Source: Gammaproteobacteria bacterium (GTDB taxonomy: Bacteria > Pseudomonadota > Gammaproteobacteria > Pseudomonadales > Azotimanducaceae). From it: a DNA stretch of 32,486 bases. Shown here piece by piece: positions 19,333 to 31,274 of the stretch. The stretch lies in contig JABHYO010000021.1 of assembly GCA_018656865.1 (NCBI GenBank), positions 1 through 32,486 of the forward strand, written 5' to 3'. The notes below the pieces were generated by a model. That model was not told the origin of the DNA. It worked only from the letters and a program-made list of their open reading frames with translations, and did no database searches. The position numbers and the translations under genes are program-made. Each line of letters begins with the position of its first letter. The first letter of the stretch is position 1.

Positions 19333-19400
19333 CGTCTGCCTTGCTCCTTGAAAAAGGCAGGATTATACGTGTTCGCACCTGATCAGAAAGGGCAGAATCC

Positions 19401-19529
19401 AGCTAGTTTCCGTCCAGAAAAGGCAGCATTCATGGGTATTAGGCGCGACTGCCCATTACTGTTAGTTTATAAATCAACTGGTTATCAGGAAACTAGCACC
19501 GCGGCATCGATTTCTCGGACACGAACCAG
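19401..19529. repeat. 129-bp inverted repeat, left copy
   Basis: This block matches the reverse complement of 20797-20925 without gaps at 112 of 129 positions by hand count. It ends next to the stop codon (19530-19532) of the LLM oxidoreductase gene. Within it, GCTAGTTTCC (19402-19411) and GGAAACTAGC (19488-19497) are exact inverted repeats 96 bases apart end to end, and a conserved near-palindrome GTTAGTTTATAAATCAAC lies between them. It fills most of the spacer between the LLM gene and the channel gene. Confidence 0.9.
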
Positions 19530-20609
19530 CTAGTTTGCTTCCGCTGCCCGCACTGTCGGCATTACTTCGTTGGTGAACAACGCTAAGGCCTTGTCAGCAA
19601 GGTCCGGTGTTGTCAGGGGTGATGGGCTGGCAACAACAAAGCGTTCAATGCCAAGATCGACTAGCGCATTGAGCCTTTCAATACACTCATCCGCTGGCCC
19701 GATGATGGCGAAGCGATCGTAGAAATCCGCCGGGACTTCCTTGCTCTGCGGCGAGCCTTCCTGAAAGTGTGCTCGCAACTGGTAGGCGTCATGTACACTT
19801 TCATAGACTTTACGTTCGCCTTCCGAGACAGGCGCCACTGACTTACCATGCATGGCCGTAAATCGAGCCATTGATGCCGTCACGCCACTGAGCATGCGTC
19901 TGCCTGCTTCGATGTCATCAGTCACAGCGACCGGTACCCAGGCACCGAGGCTGACGGGCCGATCAACATTTCCTGCTTCACGCTCTTGTCTAACGACGTC
20001 CAGTGCCCAACCTACCCTTTCGGGATCAGCGCCGACTGCTGTTGTTATCCGGTCGGCGTAGCGAGCTGCAATAGCCAGCACTTTAGGGCCCGTCCCAACC
20101 ATGTCCAGAGGTACTGGATCGATGCCTTCCATGAACAAGCTGAATCTTGCCTCCTCTGCAGACTGGGCAAGTCCGAGCCGTTCAACGGAAGGAAAGTGGT
20201 TACCGCCGTCCAGATCCAGATCAAATGGCTGCGCCTCTTCCTGAAGGTAATTTCTGACCCTTTGCACATAGGCTTCAAAAAACTTGAGCGGCGCCGGTGA
20301 CATGCCTAGATAGGCCAATGCGGAATCACCCCGACCGAGACCGAATACAGCTCTCCCCTCTGACACCGCCTGAACGGTTTTGATCGATCCCGCAGCTGAT
20401 GCCGGCGTGTGCGATGCCGGTGTTGCAACCCAATTACCCAGTTTTATCGTACTCGTTGCCAAAGCAGCCGCTGTCATGCAGCAATAGGGATCGGGAGCCT
20501 GTAGTGGTGCATAAGGTATGCCTAAACCGTCCCAGCCCTGGGCTTCAGCCTTCTTCGCGGCTTCTGCGACATCCCCAGGCAGGCCTACTGCTGTAGTCCA
20601 AAATTCCAT
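19530..20609 (-). CDS. LLM-class (luciferase-like) flavin-dependent oxidoreductase
   Basis: This 359-residue protein belongs to the bacterial luciferase-like family, TIM-barrel enzymes that use FMN or F420. It has the typical N-terminal strand EFWTTAVGLPG, AEAQGWDGLGIPY, the GLGRGDSALAYLG loop that binds the cofactor phosphate in relatives, and a C-terminal GIERFVV element. I place the start at 20609, where AGGAGG stands four bases before the ATG; an in-frame ATG at 20639 would add ten residues. It is bracketed by the 129-bp inverted repeats, which suggests transfer as a unit or shared control. It is divergent from the SnoaL-like gene. The substrate is unknown. Confidence 0.9.
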   Translation of the reverse strand: MEFWTTAVGLPGDVAEAAKKAEAQGWDGLGIPYAPLQAPDPYCCMTAAALATSTIKLGNWVATPASHTPASAAGSIKTVQAVSEGRAVFGLGRGDSALAYLGMSPAPLKFFEAYVQRVRNYLQEEAQPFDLDLDGGNHFPSVERLGLAQSAEEARFSLFMEGIDPVPLDMVGTGPKVLAIAARYADRITTAVGADPERVGWALDVVRQEREAGNVDRPVSLGAWVPVAVTDDIEAGRRMLSGVTASMARFTAMHGKSVAPVSEGERKVYESVHDAYQLRAHFQEGSPQSKEVPADFYDRFAIIGPADECIERLNALVDLGIERFVVASPSPLTTPDLADKALALFTNEVMPTVRAAEAN

Positions 20610-20655
20610 AACGCCTCCTACTCCGATACATTGTGACAAGAGTCAGCCATCCGCC

Positions 20656-20669
20656 CTTGCTTAAGCAAG
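20656..20669. promoter_or_regulatory. 14-bp perfect palindrome upstream of the LLM gene
   Basis: CTTGCTTAAGCAAG is a perfect palindrome 47 bases upstream of the LLM start codon. Its size and position would suit an operator for a dimeric repressor, but no regulator gene is adjacent. Confidence 0.35.
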
Positions 20670-20796
20670 CTTTTCCGGAATCGGATAGATCCTGAAAAAG
20701 GCGTACGGCATATCTGCCAGGCAGTGTGGCGCGTGGCCTACTGCTGGTATCTTCTAACCAAAACCCATGCCAACAGTAATCAAAGCGAGAAGCTTA

Positions 20797-20925
20797 CTGG
20801 TTCGTGTCCAAGAAATTGATACCGTAGTGCTAGTTTCCTGATAACCTGTTGATTTCTAAACTAACAATATTGGGCTGTCGCGCCTAATACCCATGAAAAC
20901 TGCCGATTTCGGACGGAATCTAGCT
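20797..20925. repeat. 129-bp inverted repeat, right copy
   Basis: This is the reverse-complement partner of 19401-19529, about 87 per cent identical. The inner dyad is kept but with one mismatch: GCTAGTTTCC at 20829-20838 and GGAATCTAGC at 20915-20924. It ends 23 bases before the start codon of the SnoaL-like gene, so it overlaps that gene's likely promoter or leader. Confidence 0.9.
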
Positions 20926-20948
20926 AGTCTGGAAAGAGGAATCTTGAT

Positions 20949-21410
20949 ATGACAGTTGCGGACAATCGCGCCCTGATAGAACGTTGGTACCGGGCACTCG
21001 CGGAAAATGACTTTGACACCATCTATGACATGCACGATGACGATGTCATCTACAACATGCTGGGCAACACCCCGGTGTCCGGTCGAATCTACGGGAAAGA
21101 AGCCTGCTGCAACGGCATGATCGGTCAGAAACTACTCGAAAAAATGGTGCCCGGACAGATCCAATTCGCAAAGGAGTGGAAAATTGTCGCTGCCGAGTGT
21201 GATCGAGTGGTCGGCCTGATGATAGGCGGCGGTCCAACAAAAAATGGTGAGAACTACGATCAAACCTATTGCGAGATCTTTACCATTCGTGAGGGAAAGA
21301 TCGTGGAATTGCATGCCTTTCTGGATACCGTACTTGTTGAACAATGCCTGTTCAACAACCCGCTGGCCGAGCGCGAAACACCCTGCCCGGATCCCTTTCA
21401 GATAAACTAG
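20949..21410 (+). CDS. SnoaL-like / NTF2-like protein
   Basis: This 153-residue protein has the NTF2-like cone fold signature of the SnoaL and ketosteroid-isomerase-like group: NRALIERWYRALAENDFDTIYDMHDDDVIYNMLG near the N-terminus, and GENYDQTYCEIFTIREGKIVELHAFLDTVLV near the C-terminus. Members include small isomerases, cyclases, hydrolases and non-enzymatic binders, so the reaction is not predictable. A good AGAGGAA ribosome-binding site precedes the ATG. It comes right after the right-hand 129-bp repeat and 48 bases before the nitroreductase gene, with which it is probably co-transcribed. Confidence 0.85.
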   Translation: MTVADNRALIERWYRALAENDFDTIYDMHDDDVIYNMLGNTPVSGRIYGKEACCNGMIGQKLLEKMVPGQIQFAKEWKIVAAECDRVVGLMIGGGPTKNGENYDQTYCEIFTIREGKIVELHAFLDTVLVEQCLFNNPLAERETPCPDPFQIN

Positions 21411-21458: not shown

Positions 21459-22103
21459 ATGCCCGATATAACCGTCCACGAGGCAATTTTTACGACGCGC
21501 GCAATGCGCCACCTTAAATCGGATCCAGTGCCAAAAGCCGATCTGGAATATCTGATCGAGGCCGCTACGATGGCGCCCAGTGCCGGTAATCTACAAATGT
21601 GGGCATTCGTCGTAGTAACCGATGCCGGGCAGCGTCAGCGTATTGCAGACCTCCATCGGGAAATCGGAAATAAATACATTCGAGACACGATTCTCGCAGA
21701 TCCCGAAACAGACGATGATAGACGGCGGGTTTACACCCGTGCCATGCACAATGTTGAAAACCTGAACGAGGCACCGGTCATTATCGTCGCCTGTTTGACC
21801 ATGCCATGCCCTGACGTTGCGGGTATCGCCTCCGGTTTCTTTGGTTCAATTTTCCCCGCAGCCCAGAATCTCTTGCTGGCAGCCAGGTCAAGAGGTCTCG
21901 GCGGAGTACTGATCACACTCGGTTCCGATTACGCCCCTTTTCTCCCGGAACAAAATCCCGGGATCGGAGAGATTCTGAATCTCCCAACTGACGTCAAAGC
22001 CGTGGCTCTGATACCGGTAGGCTATCCAAAGGGAGTCTGGGATCGCCCGTGGCGTGAGCCCTGGCAGGATTGTGTGCACTGGGATCAGTGGTCAGATTCG
22101 TAG
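21459..22103 (+). CDS. Nitroreductase-family flavoprotein
   Basis: This 214-residue FMN enzyme of the nitroreductase family has the N-terminal TTRAMRHLKSDPVP motif with FMN-contacting Arg residues, and then IEAATMAPSAGNLQMWAFVVV, the second FMN-binding segment. Near the C-terminus RGLGGVLITL and ALIPVGYPKG complete the family pattern. It would reduce nitro groups, quinones or enones with NAD(P)H, or act in a catabolic step; the substrate is unknown. A GGAG ribosome-binding site lies upstream. It ends eight bases before the convergent serine hydrolase gene. Confidence 0.88.
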   Translation: MPDITVHEAIFTTRAMRHLKSDPVPKADLEYLIEAATMAPSAGNLQMWAFVVVTDAGQRQRIADLHREIGNKYIRDTILADPETDDDRRRVYTRAMHNVENLNEAPVIIVACLTMPCPDVAGIASGFFGSIFPAAQNLLLAARSRGLGGVLITLGSDYAPFLPEQNPGIGEILNLPTDVKAVALIPVGYPKGVWDRPWREPWQDCVHWDQWSDS

Positions 22104-22111
22104 GTGTTCGG

Positions 22112-23275
22112 TCAGCTAACGAGGGAGGCATGAACCAGATCCGAGACCCGCTGGCAGCGCAATATATGATCAGAGTCCTCGATGACACCGGTGGACAGGA
22201 ACACAAATGTCAGGTCCTTGTCAGGATCGACCCAGAACATCGTGGAACCGGAACCCATGCCGCCAAAGCTTTCCGGGCTCGCCATGGAGCCGAACCAGTG
22301 AGGAAAGATGCCCTCGCCGCGGAGGAAAAAACCAAGCCCAAGATTGGCGGGGAAAGTATCCCAACCCTTAGTCGCCTTGGTATAAGACCAGATGTTGTTG
22401 ACCTTTTCACCGGTCTGGTTGGTCATGATCAGATTGATCATGGCAGGAGACAGTATTCGTACGCCATTCCACTCACCACCGTTGAGCAGCATATTGGCAA
22501 AGATGTTCATATCACCAGCAGAGGTGACATAACCTCCTGCCGGTATTTCTGCAGTCTCCGTGACTAACATGTCCAGACCGATGATACCTGCCGGGTCGAA
22601 CAGCCCCTCCGATGCATAGCGGGCGACGACCGGGCAAACCCTCGACGCCAGATCGGCGCGCCTGCCTAGCGACGTCTCCTGCATACCCAGAGGTTCGAAA
22701 AGATCCCGCTGCATAATTTCACGGAAGGACACATTCTGTCCCTCCACACGACGCACCATTTCGGCGATTATTGCGTGAGCGCAAAGTGCTGAGTAGTGCA
22801 CGCTGGTTCCGGGCACGGTTTCCACCGGGCTATCGCAAATACCAGCCACCACCGCTTCCAGATTACCCATTTTTTCCGGCGACACGGGCGGCGGTCCGAG
22901 CTGGAGTCCGGCCGTGTGCGTCAACAACTGATACAGGGTGATATGCTCCTTGCCTCGACACCCGAATTCGGGAATCACTTCCGCCACCTTCATTGTCAGG
23001 CTTAGATCACCGCGCTCCACTCTGTTCAGCGCCACGACCCCGGTCAACTGCTTGGCCATGGACAGGGAGATGAATAGCCGATCAGCTTCCATGGCTGTCC
23101 CCGACGCACGATCTGCATATCCAAAGGCTTCCAGCATCGCGGTAACACCACCACGGGAGACACACAACACGGCACCGTCGTACATCTCTTGTTCAATGTC
23201 TCTGGACACGACTTCTCCGATTCGATCAAGGCGCGCCCTATCGAACCCTAGTTCTTCGGCTGATAAATCAGTCAT
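22112..23275 (-). CDS. Beta-lactamase-family serine hydrolase
   Basis: This 387-residue protein belongs to the class C beta-lactamase/esterase family. The nucleophile motif is S72-M-A-K75 in FISLSMAKQLTG, followed by LLTHTAGL and a Tyr motif in HYSALCAHAII. No signal peptide is evident at the N-terminus (MTDLSAEELGFDRARLDRIG), so a cytoplasmic esterase or lactonase such as those in aromatic and terpenoid catabolism is more likely than a periplasmic antibiotic-resistance enzyme. AAGGAG stands seven bases before the ATG. The substrate is unknown. Confidence 0.9.
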   Translation of the reverse strand: MTDLSAEELGFDRARLDRIGEVVSRDIEQEMYDGAVLCVSRGGVTAMLEAFGYADRASGTAMEADRLFISLSMAKQLTGVVALNRVERGDLSLTMKVAEVIPEFGCRGKEHITLYQLLTHTAGLQLGPPPVSPEKMGNLEAVVAGICDSPVETVPGTSVHYSALCAHAIIAEMVRRVEGQNVSFREIMQRDLFEPLGMQETSLGRRADLASRVCPVVARYASEGLFDPAGIIGLDMLVTETAEIPAGGYVTSAGDMNIFANMLLNGGEWNGVRILSPAMINLIMTNQTGEKVNNIWSYTKATKGWDTFPANLGLGFFLRGEGIFPHWFGSMASPESFGGMGSGSTMFWVDPDKDLTFVFLSTGVIEDSDHILRCQRVSDLVHASLVS

Positions 23276-23322: not shown

Positions 23323-24078
23323 TCAGGACGGCTGCAACAATCCCCCATTCGAATCCCGATCTGCACCCGCCATCAGAAAACGCAAAATCCAGGCCGAGAC
23401 TTCCCCGTGGGACAGTGGACCCTCCAGCGATGACATTCCTTGTTTATAAATCTCGGTGCCAATAATATCTTTGCGCCAGTTCATCAGGTCTGCGGCATAG
23501 GCGCGACTGAACTCCGGATGTCCCTGCATCGCAAGAATATGATCACCGATTGAAAACATACTATTCGGACAGAAGTCACTGCCAGCTAACAATCGTGCCT
23601 CATCAGGTAATTTTGTCACCTGATCCTTGTGCGAAACGATGAGTGAAAAGCGATCGAGTTCAGGCTTCATAAACCATGCCTGCGCGCAGACATCGCTGTT
23701 GTGAACCCCGACTCCCCAACCAATCTTTGCTGCCGTTGTCCTGCCGCCCAAAGCCTCAGCGATTAACTGGTGGCCAAAACAGATACCGACCAGCCTGACC
23801 TGTTCCTTGTGCAGCACCCTGACAAAATCAATCAGTGCAGCAATCCAGGGATCACCGTCGTAGACACTCTTTTTACTACCGGTGATGATATATCCGTCGC
23901 AGTCGCCAACAGCACCGGGATACTGGCCCTGCTCGACATTGTAGGTCAGATAGTTGACTGATATTCCAAGGCTTGCCGCCGCATCGGTCAGGATAGTTTC
24001 GATCATGCCGGGGTAGTTGCCGTGCGCTCCCTGAAACTGTTCGAGTACGGAATCCGCCTGGAGAATACCAATCTGCAT
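23323..24078 (-). CDS. Class I glutamine amidotransferase-like protein
   Basis: This 251-residue protein has the class I glutaminase triad: C100 in GICFGHQ, H187 and E189 in QGHPEFS. It resembles stand-alone GMP-synthase-type amidotransferases. I use the ATG at 24078, which overlaps the stop of the glutamine-synthetase-family gene as TGATG; the longer start at 24111 lies inside that gene. Such coupling suggests that the two act together, for example by adding and then removing a gamma-glutamyl group as PuuA and PuuD do in polyamine use. Its PuuD equivalence is only inferred from position. Confidence 0.88.
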   Translation of the reverse strand: MQIGILQADSVLEQFQGAHGNYPGMIETILTDAAASLGISVNYLTYNVEQGQYPGAVGDCDGYIITGSKKSVYDGDPWIAALIDFVRVLHKEQVRLVGICFGHQLIAEALGGRTTAAKIGWGVGVHNSDVCAQAWFMKPELDRFSLIVSHKDQVTKLPDEARLLAGSDFCPNSMFSIGDHILAMQGHPEFSRAYAADLMNWRKDIIGTEIYKQGMSSLEGPLSHGEVSAWILRFLMAGADRDSNGGLLQPS

Positions 24079-25448
24079 CAGATGATTTCGAAGTACCGTT
24101 TCAGTTGCCAATCGTTTACCGAACGCTCGTATTCACGCACTTCCCAGTCTCTGGAGGCGGAAAAATGATCGACGAAGGTATCACCAAAATATTCTCTGGC
24201 AACAGCCGATTCTGTAAAGACCCTGGTCGCGTCCCGGAGGTTGCCGCAAAGCTGGAATGCTTCCGGCTGATCATCCTGCAGCTCGTATGCATTGCCTGTT
24301 ACCTGCTCCCCCGGCTCCATCTTTTTTCTGATGCCATCCAGGCCAGCGGCGACGTTGGCCGCCGCAACGAGGTAGGGGTTGGCATCCGCTGATCCCACCC
24401 TGAATTCGACCCGCTGGGAAGTTGACGAACCGGAAATCACACGTAGTGCAGCAGTTCGGTTTTCCAGCCCCCAGGTCGCTGCGGTTGGCGCCCAGGCTCC
24501 CTTCACCAACCGGGTATAACTGTTAACGGTAGGTGATGTCATTGCCAGAAAAGATTTCATATGTGCCTGAAGACCACCGACGTAGTAACGCATGGTATCG
24601 CTCATTCGATAGGGTGAGTTCTCGTCGAAGAAAAGATTGTGGTCGGTGTTGAGGGCATTCAGAGACTGATGAAGATGCCCACTCTGCCCGGGATAGTCCA
24701 TGGACCATTTGGCCATGAATGTCGCCATCATTTCACGTCGTTGAAAAAAGGCCTTGGAAAAGGTCTTAAAAAGCACAGCCTTGTCTGCCGCAGCGAGTGC
24801 ATCGTCAACGGTAATCGCTGCTTCCCAGACACCCGGGCCGGTTTCACAGTGCAGCCCTTCCAGCGGAAAATCGTGAACTGCACAGTACTCCATAAACTCA
24901 TTGAAGAGATCGGAGAGCGTCATTGTTCTCAGAACAGAGTAACCGAAATTACCCGGTGAGAGCGGTATCAGATTCTGGTAGTTCTTGTCGCGAGCACTCT
25001 GAGCTGTTTCCCTGAAAATAAAAAACTCATATTCGAAGGCGAGCCTGGGCTGATAGCCGACATCTTCGGCCATGGCCAGTACCTGCTTCAGTCGGGTACG
25101 GGGACATATCGGATGTGCAGCACCTTTTTCACCCACGAACTCCAGCAGGAAAAACGGTATGTTGTCCTCATCAACCAGGCGACGCTCAGTGGTCAGGTCG
25201 ATCCTGGAGATTGCATCGGGAAAGGCCGTATGCCAACCCGTGAAAGTGGTATTGTCATACAGCTGATCGTCGACATCCCAGCCCAGCACACAGTCACAAA
25301 ATCCCGACGTACCTGCGGCAATACCCCGAAACTTATCGAGAGAAATGTACTTACCGCGAAGAACCCCGTCGATATCGGTAAACCCAAGTTTTACCCGGGC
25401 TACGCCTTCCCGCTCGTACTGCTGGACTAACTCGTCCGCTTCCACCAT
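24078..25448 (-). CDS. Glutamine synthetase family ligase (PuuA/GlnA-like)
   Basis: This 456-residue protein is of the glutamine synthetase fold that ligates glutamate to an amine. Metal and substrate motifs are present: FEYEFFIF with E139 and E141, CETGPGVWE, the GHLHQSL ATP-site motif and ENRTAALRV. The N-terminal beta-grasp part VKLGFTDIDGVLRGKY is typical of the PuuA-like branch, and the adenylylation-site Tyr region of GlnA is not recognisable. Together with the coupled amidotransferase and the nearby symporter, I infer gamma-glutamylation of an amine or polyamine. True ammonia assimilation is less likely. Only a weak AGAG ribosome-binding sequence is seen. Confidence 0.9.
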   Translation of the reverse strand: MVEADELVQQYEREGVARVKLGFTDIDGVLRGKYISLDKFRGIAAGTSGFCDCVLGWDVDDQLYDNTTFTGWHTAFPDAISRIDLTTERRLVDEDNIPFFLLEFVGEKGAAHPICPRTRLKQVLAMAEDVGYQPRLAFEYEFFIFRETAQSARDKNYQNLIPLSPGNFGYSVLRTMTLSDLFNEFMEYCAVHDFPLEGLHCETGPGVWEAAITVDDALAAADKAVLFKTFSKAFFQRREMMATFMAKWSMDYPGQSGHLHQSLNALNTDHNLFFDENSPYRMSDTMRYYVGGLQAHMKSFLAMTSPTVNSYTRLVKGAWAPTAATWGLENRTAALRVISGSSTSQRVEFRVGSADANPYLVAAANVAAGLDGIRKKMEPGEQVTGNAYELQDDQPEAFQLCGNLRDATRVFTESAVAREYFGDTFVDHFSASRDWEVREYERSVNDWQLKRYFEII

Positions 25449-25517
25449 TTGATTCTCTTTGCCGTCTACCAGACAGCTTCTCCCACAAACTCCAATCAGG
25501 TCCCAATCATGCTTCTA

Positions 25518-25580
25518 CTAGTAACGCTGAGGGCTCTTCTAGCAACGCTGAAGGCTCTTCTAGTAACGCTGAGGGCTCTT
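25518..25580. repeat. Three tandem 21-bp repeat units
   Basis: Three head-to-tail 21-bp units occupy 25518-25538, 25539-25559 and 25560-25580. Units 1 and 3 are identical, and unit 2 differs at two positions. The unit begins CTAGTAACGCTGAGGGCTC. They lie between the symporter stop and the start of the glutamine-synthetase-family gene, so they could be repeated operator sites upstream of the latter or a simple slipped repeat. Confidence 0.92.
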
Positions 25581-25612
25581 CGAATCTATCAAAACACTGG
25601 ATCAACCAAAGA

Positions 25613-30410: not shown

Positions 30411-30452
30411 CGCCGGGTTACCCCCTGGGCTCAAAACAACCTCCCTGTATGA

Positions 30453-30468
30453 CTGTTTGGATATACAG
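30453..30468. promoter_or_regulatory. Predicted LexA box 1 of a tandem pair
   Basis: CTGTTTGGATATACAG fits CTGT-N8-ACAG, with 13 of 16 positions as in the E. coli consensus. It lies two bases from the second box and is its mirror image apart from one base. Confidence 0.6.
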
Positions 30469-30493
30469 TACTGTATATCTAAACAGCAATCAA
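30465..30493 (-). promoter_or_regulatory. Possible sigma-70 promoter under the LexA boxes
   Basis: On the minus strand TTGATT (30493-30488) and TACTGT (30470-30465) are 17 bases apart. The -35 is fair and the -10 is poor. Both LexA-like boxes overlap it, the arrangement expected of an SOS promoter reading toward the small ORF and ybbN. Confidence 0.33.
30471..30486. promoter_or_regulatory. Predicted LexA box 2 of a tandem pair
   Basis: CTGTATATCTAAACAG fits CTGT-N8-ACAG, with 14 of 16 positions as in the E. coli consensus. With box 1 its centre-to-centre distance is 18 bases. Confidence 0.65.
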
Positions 30494-30506
30494 GCGAGAA
30501 TCAGTT

Positions 30507-31274
30507 TTAACTGAGGCTGGTCCAGACTATTCCTTCATGCTGATCGGCGACGATCAGTTCCCCGGCCCAGTCCACGAGATGGGGTTCGACCGCAGAAACG
30601 GCTAGTTCAGCCAGGTTGTTCTGCTCGCTGACGTGCGAAATCACAAGTTTTTGAAGTCCACCAAGATTCATATCGGTAAGAAGTTCAGCGGCCTGCTGGT
30701 TATTGAGATGACCATAGTCACCACTGACCCTCTGCTTCAACGGATAGGGATAGGGTCCGTTCTGCAGCATCTCAAGGTCATGATTGCACTCCAGCAGCAG
30801 AGCGTTGCAATCCCGGTAACAGGCCTTCACATGAGGTGTCACATGACCGAGATCCGTCAAGACTCCGACCGAAAATCCGCATGACGACAACACGTACTGG
30901 CAAGGTTCCTTGGCATCGTGTGGAACGGCGACCGGCGATACCTGAAAACTACCCAGGGCAAAAGGTTCATGACAACTGATCAGGTTGAGTTTCGGCAATT
31001 CGCCCATCTGCTTTGGCTGATAAGTCCCATGAGTCAGATATACAGGTGTTTTGAATTTTCGGGCAAAGGCCGCAACACCGTGAATATGATCGGCATGTTC
31101 ATGGGTAACCAGAATGGCATCAATATCGGATGGGGTTTTCTCAAGTCTGGCGAGACGCCTGACGGATTCCTTCAGTGAAAAACCGAGATCGATAAGAACA
31201 CAGGTATCGCCGTCATCAATGAGTGTACTGTTACCCTTGCTACCACTACCTAAAGACGCGAACCGTACGGCCAT
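30507..31274 (-). CDS. MBL-fold hydrolase of the YycJ/WalJ type
   Basis: This 255-residue metallo-beta-lactamase-fold protein has the opening RFASLGSGSKGNSTLI that is characteristic of the YycJ/WalJ group, and the metal motif H58-E-H60-A-D62-H63. Later ligands lie in VPHDA, LTDLGH and VISHVSEQNN. YycJ-type proteins are thought to be exonucleases linked to DNA repair in Firmicutes; the role in gammaproteobacteria is less clear. It starts three bases after the bamC stop and so belongs to the dapA-bamC operon. In Pseudomonas this position is followed by purC, which is absent here. Confidence 0.92.
   Translation of the reverse strand: MAVRFASLGSGSKGNSTLIDDGDTCVLIDLGFSLKESVRRLARLEKTPSDIDAILVTHEHADHIHGVAAFARKFKTPVYLTHGTYQPKQMGELPKLNLISCHEPFALGSFQVSPVAVPHDAKEPCQYVLSSCGFSVGVLTDLGHVTPHVKACYRDCNALLLECNHDLEMLQNGPYPYPLKQRVSGDYGHLNNQQAAELLTDMNLGGLQKLVISHVSEQNNLAELAVSAVEPHLVDWAGELIVADQHEGIVWTSLS

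Follow-up and report, generated by a model that had tools for sequence, protein, structure and literature searches.

The inverted repeats and the LLM locus

The window, by which we mean the whole 32,486-nucleotide stretch of DNA that was analysed, contains a luciferase-like monooxygenase (LLM) gene enclosed by two 129-bp blocks in opposite orientation. As the preliminary description had stated, the block at 19401-19529 and the reverse complement of 20797-20925 are identical at 112 of 129 positions without gaps, the first block touches the LLM stop codon (overlap with 19530-19532, minus strand), and the second stops 23 bases short of the next gene (ORF at 20949), with no transposase-like gene seen between the blocks. 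The enclosed gene belongs to the Bac_luciferase family. A repeat search of the window extends the inverted arms to 136 nt at 85% identity, and the match between the partner blocks (BLAST, E 2.9e-39) is far beyond chance. The inner dyad described for each block is present, with the pattern CTAG(T/A)TTCC...GGAAACTAG, and spans 94 bp, not about 96 bp. The LLM start is likely the ATG at 20609, which by reading lies behind AGGAGG; the mechanical ORF begins at TTG 20639. The features of the locus are the following.

19399-19405, plus strand: left target-site duplication of copy 1, CCAGCTA; register backed by permutation tests
19403-19496, plus strand: inner dyad of copy 1, CTAGTTTCC ... GGAAACTAG; three-base overlap with the target; pairing counts from 33 sequences
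19406-19525, plus strand: element copy 1, 120 bp; BLAST and profile matches, boundaries deduced from the duplicated target
19526-19532, plus strand: right-hand duplicate of the copy 1 target, CCAGCTA, with the LLM stop codon in its last three bases (19530-19532; minus-strand TAG)
19530-20609, minus strand: LLM gene (PF00296, E 1.3e-37); context, outside the element
20794-20800, minus strand: right-end flank of copy 2, CCAGTAA; either a degenerate duplication or not a duplication at all
20801-20920, minus strand: element copy 2, 120 bp, identical to copy 1 at 103 of 120 positions; BLAST and profile matches
20830-20923, minus strand: inner dyad of copy 2
20921-20927, minus strand: left-end target of copy 2, CTAGCTA
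20949-21410, plus strand: SnoaL-like gene (Pfam); context
21459-22103, plus strand: nitroreductase family gene (Pfam); context
22112-23275, minus strand: beta-lactamase family gene (Pfam); context

We compared the locus with seven relatives that have a full-length orthologue of the ion-channel gene. In six of the seven, some 46-91 bp separate the channel gene from a gene that matches 23323-24111 (in G013 the latter was not found), and around the orthologue none of the seven has a match to the LLM, SnoaL, nitroreductase or beta-lactamase family genes (tblastn, 1e-4). Because the relatives' neighbours are adjacent and the four genes have no match there, the window has about 4 kb of extra DNA, with copy 1 near one edge of it and copy 2 in the middle. 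The comparison with relatives lacking the LLM gene that the preliminary description had proposed thus yields adjacent flanking genes in six of seven cases, and what is extra here is four genes rather than the LLM gene alone. Gain of a four-gene segment of about 4 kb would be a simpler reading than its loss. The same genome has two LLM paralogues (44% and 41%), and the best match in another genome, ranked by E-value, is 33% over residues 22-202. Elsewhere in the window, positions 25514-25581 hold three tandem units spaced 21 bp apart, and 30441-30498 contains an imperfect 30-bp palindrome (80% complementary) that lies between the ORFs 29221-30093/29224-30111 and 30507-31274.

The element family, its duplicated target and the origin of the pair

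We found that the repeat is a multicopy sequence. The check for further genomic copies, suggested at the outset, gave 42 BLAST matches to the first block in the 3.71-Mb draft genome, and a sequence-only profile built from 33 copies gave 68 own-genome matches, fragments counted. Across 81 copies the core is 116-143 bp long (median 119) and has no coding capacity, the longest methionine-started stretch within a copy being 41 aa. The terminal inverted repeats are imperfect (GTTTCCGTCCGA / TTCCTGTCCGA), and the ends of the aligned copies read TARCTAG-TTTCCGTCC...GGACANGAAC-TARCTA. The outer dyad is paired in 83.5% of cells in 33 sequences, compared to 17-42% after sliding by 1-3 columns; it has no covariation beyond that of shuffles. 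The element's interior is conserved above what a simple MITE needs.

The counts over 81 copies go back to 97 profile matches, of which 82 were carried into the boundary analysis. We left out L172, L173 and L174 (junction identical to L171), L229, a third, partial match in L005, and ten partial matches (L018, L215, L225, L226, L227, L235, L236, L183, L191 and L231); L023, at a contig edge with an unreadable left end, was then dropped to give the 81 copies of the later counts.

Copies also occur in head-to-tail arrays with 127-bp spacing (contigs C25 and C150), and there are short forms of 53-55 bp without the element's middle that form arrays as well. Adjoining array units have one target copy in common, the element thus nesting in its own target. 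On C25, after two tandem copies, the last ~33-bp module alone is repeated once more (43800-43834; L005 1756-1790), which suggests module-wise expansion. Contigs C160 (L099, 15300-15900) and C221 (L100, 51600-52256) end inside arrays of one 55-bp short form and have the flank TAGCATAACTAG in common, so that they may join there. Copies at a contig end were also seen in C83, C203 and C167; with copies or arrays at several contig ends, the repeats seem to break assembly.

Beyond the own genome, diverged copies are present in six other genomes of the genus (9 each in G001, G005 and G011, 10 in G014, 5 in G004 and 2 in G009), while G018, which belongs to another genus, has four weak copies and G058, an Acidobacteria-titled MAG, has one. 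The profile search covered 26 of the 59 genomes known at that stage, and the remaining 17 of the 26 have no match at E 0.001. Among 293 genomes of the order, searched with stricter filters and with only 11 candidates per genome scored, the own genome is the sole match; the genus members with copies are absent from the genomes listed in that search. The exact core AGGAAACTAGCACCKCGGT occurs in two stretches of the GTDB 220 contigs, from which records near the own genome were possibly excluded: one (L120), in an Acidobacteria-titled MAG, is a full element, and the other (L121) was rejected, being by reading a chance match in coding DNA. Viral contigs have 0 matches to the exact core, and plasmid and phage records have 0 matches to window copy 1.

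If the target was duplicated upon insertion, the two flanks of one copy should agree more than the flanks of different copies. We employed this logic in a permutation test of 46 own copies (an earlier test had 34 copies). Flank identity over seven positions is 214/322, compared to 185.7 +/- 4.9 when permuted, a value that none of 1000 permutations attains; of six shifted registers, the best gives 64/1000. The signal is strongest at positions 1 and 3 (0/1000 each) and weaker at positions 4, 0 and 6 (23, 48 and 60 of 1000, respectively), while position -4, beyond the proposed duplication, gives 35/1000. This correlation at one register therefore delimits an element of ~120 bp with a duplication, YTARCTA, of roughly 7 bp, the exact length being uncertain by a base or two. 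The preliminary description had found no target-site duplication, which does not hold: copy 1 has a perfect CCAGCTA on both sides (19399-19405 and 19526-19532), and the left and right flanks of own-genome copies are correlated at exactly that register. Copy 2 has no clean duplication (CTAGCTA on one side, CCAGTAA on the other). At 18 older sites of other genomes, where copies were grouped by eye from their flanks, the overall correlation is not significant (84/126 versus 81.5 +/- 2.5; 225/1000) and a signal appears at position 1 only (10/1000); decay may explain this.

The data supports, with high probability, a mechanism whereby the two window repeats arose by independent insertion of a non-autonomous, MITE-like mobile element of about 120 bp. 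A pair of separately inserted MITE-like elements was among the options listed at the outset, and it is the one upheld by the multiple copies, the terminal inverted repeats, the target duplication and the empty sites elsewhere. The two window copies are not each other's closest relatives. Their mutual similarity ranks only 12th of 45, from which we conclude that they inserted separately, and copy 1 is 94% identical to a copy on contig C28. With 42-68 copies in 3.71 Mb, 0.6-1.5 copy pairs within 1,253 bp in any orientation are expected by chance; that the two repeats are paired is unremarkable.

Two other explanations of the pair give the enclosed LLM gene a larger part. The copies could bound a non-autonomous composite cassette that brought the gene into the genome, as the preliminary description had also proposed; the gene has no close counterpart in the genus, the relatives read lack it at this locus, and cassettes flanked by MITEs are described in the available text of a review (PMC10969869). 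We consider this highly improbable, since copy 1 carries a perfect duplication of its own whereas the one sought at the pair's outer ends is missing, the DNA absent from relatives comprises four genes with copy 2 in mid-segment and with three of them (SnoaL, nitroreductase and beta-lactamase family) lying beyond the pair, and chance alone would be expected to place two copies this near each other. The surroundings of the two LLM paralogues (4.5 and 5.5 kb) contain one match only to the repeat ends, which has 5 mismatches and is not convincing. Alternatively, the segment between the repeats could invert by recombination and switch LLM expression, a proposal that inverted arms of 129-136 bp with 85-87% identity might invite. 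Yet 17 of 129 positions are mismatched between the arms, the enclosed segment holds no recombinase, and each window copy resembles copies elsewhere more than it does its partner, leaving inversion with almost no likelihood. Neither an invertible segment nor paired regulatory elements, the two remaining options of the preliminary description, found support in the analysis. Under independent insertion, the LLM gene would lie between two copies by coincidence, copy 1 having probably inserted on the LLM stop codon with the gene already in place. The lead of an LLM gene in a mobile cassette of its own is thereby removed.

Stop codons in the target and empty sites in relatives

In 39 of 47 own rows the target is followed by A or G, and the extended target YTARYTAR is its own reverse complement. 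It contains TAA or TAG in two frames of each strand, that is in four of six frames, and is therefore hardly possible inside genes. With the long copies set aside, we counted 11 occurrences of YTARYTAR in 218 kb of own DNA (4 at gene stops, 0 in genes and 7 elsewhere); this DNA was chosen around copies with short forms unmasked and is not a random sample.

Of the 46 own copies that we classified with mechanical ORFs, 27 have a neighbour's stop codon within the duplicated target. By side, the stop is that of the gene entering the left end in 22 copies and that of the right-end gene in 8, while 19 of the 46 have no stop codon in the duplication. In other genomes, the same holds for 28 of 35 copies (16 of 18 sites, grouped by eye). 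Duplicated along with its target, a native stop codon stands on each side of the inserted element, and the adjoining genes therefore stay intact. However, the left end of the element has stops in two of three frames, so that truncation of a gene by the element would give a similar picture.

The empty sites in relatives argue against such truncation. A copy separates dnaK from dnaJ here, and the element is absent from that junction in all 10 relatives read; likewise, the trpB-trpA junction has a copy here and is without the element in all 11 relatives read (gene names from NCBIfam). Neither the end motifs nor the middle motif of the element were found at the relatives' dnaK-dnaJ or trpB-trpA junctions. 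The DnaK end coincides with that in the present genome in 6 of 10 relatives and lies 1-6 residues further on in four; for TrpB, the end coincides in 10 of 11 and comes one residue earlier in one. These counts come from 16 relatives, of which six had no match to the DnaJ query and four none to the TrpA query at the cut-offs used, and one had an unreadable trpB end. The rsxE and nth genes are also separated by a copy.

The family is new, of a known kind (MITE-like), and its target is unusual. According to PMC6382973, the 16-bp terminal inverted repeats of MITEAba12 are also those of a resident IS, and its 9-bp duplications have no sequence trend beyond AT richness. It resembles the present element in size (about 110-120 bp), imperfect terminal inverted repeats, target-site duplication and tens of copies, and differs in having a resident IS partner, where we found none, and in the target, which here is a palindromic consensus. 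The nearest precedent found for modular small repeats at gene stops, compared by description only, is BOX of Streptococcus pneumoniae. There, as far as the accessible text goes, 36 of 58 overlapping annotated genes, dnaJ included, end in a stop encoded by the repeat (PMC3049150), whereas here the stop sits in the duplicated target. ERIC (also IRU or RU-1), a 127-bp intergenic MITE-like repeat, is similar in its target duplication and its location inside operons, where its effect on mRNA depends on orientation; it differs in its 7-bp terminal inverted repeats and in having TA at its termini (PMC2229807). As an indirect test, one full copy was compared with 20,395 E. coli records and gave no match (blastn, E 0.01). 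In its available main text, a 2024 review of prokaryotic MITEs does not contain the term "stop codon" (PMC10969869). Among the titles and abstracts listed, mostly outside subscription journals, we found neither a MITE with a stop-codon or palindromic target nor the present family.

Mobilisation and possible roles at gene junctions

A DDE-type transposase making a staggered cut in the target would probably have mobilised the element in trans, either by cut-and-paste or by copying, and this enzyme may now be lost, unassembled or linked to ends too diverged to be seen. The search for an IS partner covered a draft genome of 221 contigs with end patterns of up to 3 mismatches. In 16 stretches (isolated ends, arrays and contig ends), no convincing long pair of matching ends was found that would mark an autonomous partner, the few end-pair hits with 3-4 mismatches being at about chance level. 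None of 20 neighbouring proteins is a transposase; two of them have no Pfam match. Integron attC sites are bounded by RYYYAAC and GTTRRRY core sites, and this candidate was rejected because 0 of 81 copies have them at both ends.

Alternatively, the family could be of REP/BIME type, spread by a RAYT, a single-strand HUH transposase. The copies are palindromic, lie mostly at gene ends and form head-to-tail arrays. Strong folding was found for a short-form array (z -5.1), and the genome has one RAYT-like gene (NF047646, 53.7 bits, below the cut-off of 80). The likeness to REP/BIME and to the TIR families of RAYT/TIRYT extends, in the portion of the source available (PMC3733652), to short palindromic intergenic repeats that are often clustered; the present element differs in having no GTAG head, in that no copy was seen linked to a transposase, and in its target duplication. 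In particular, a GTAG head lies within 12 nt of the edge in 0 of 81 copies, and 9 kb around the single Y1 gene contain only 6-mismatch hits to the end and core motifs. A HUH transposase would not ordinarily duplicate its target, yet a duplication is seen here. We therefore regard spread by a RAYT as very unlikely.

The RAYT-like Y1 transposase gene itself (L119 3786-4625, contig C124) encodes 279 aa with an extra C-terminal part. By reading, H-Y-D stands in this protein in place of the usual HxH, and it may therefore be inactive.

We also weighed whether operons retain the copies for a regulatory or RNA function, for example as processing sites or ribosome-binding spacers, rather than carrying them as plain parasites. 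Several relatives keep copies at the same junctions, and in own codirectional junctions one orientation prevails (15 copies versus 3), a bias not seen at the sites of other genomes (5 versus 8). The inner dyad has 4 pairs changed on both sides, compared to 0.6 in shuffles, but RNAalifold returned no consensus structure and no pairs for 33 copies; helices named by hand have modest covariation only. Both window copies fold no better than shuffles, Rfam gave no match up to E 1 at 15 loci, and one copy that was scanned has no promoter- or terminator-like matches.

At 29 element ends, a gene start, taken mechanically, lies -1 to +2 bases from the element edge (several of these ends are orthologous, and two copies are counted at both ends). 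The mean anti-SD pairing at these ends is -5.2 kcal/mol, compared to -4.45 kcal/mol for 65 ordinary ATG ORFs and -1.64 kcal/mol for 1000 random places; the element interior gives -1.3 kcal/mol. Shuffled ends, however, already reach -3.6 kcal/mol, and this control partly undermines the ribosome-binding (SD) hypothesis. In the own genome, start-adjacent ends are no better than other ends (-3.62, n=9, versus -4.29, n=83). In other genomes they are stronger (-5.87 versus -3.73), but most of them are left ends, and left ends pair more strongly in any case (-5.55). Taken as a whole, a regulatory or RNA role that maintains the copies seems unlikely.

We propose tentatively, as a possibility that we favour less than its converse, that the inserted element is adapted to gene junctions, with the target's stop codons serving each neighbour and with outward-facing AGGAA/GGGAA motifs in its ends that resemble ribosome-binding sites. 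The duplicated target would give each neighbour its own stop codon, and AGGAA/GGGAA, outward on both ends, stands at a distance that would suit a start codon just beyond the target. At one junction, secA-argJ by reading, five genus genomes have a diverged copy (L031-L035, e.g. L032 1439-1571), and its left end touches the ATG of the next gene.

Gene-dense genomes offer little neutral ground for mobile DNA, and the family suggests a simple solution: a target that is rarely possible in reading frames and that already contains stop codons. It is a testable case of how an element can spread through operons, even into dnaK-dnaJ and trpB-trpA, with the genes unbroken, and of how such spacers can be retained at the same junction across related species. 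If the adaptation to gene junctions is true, the element could split tightly packed or overlapping cistrons with both still translated, and in some relatives it would be a standing ribosome-binding spacer of an operon.
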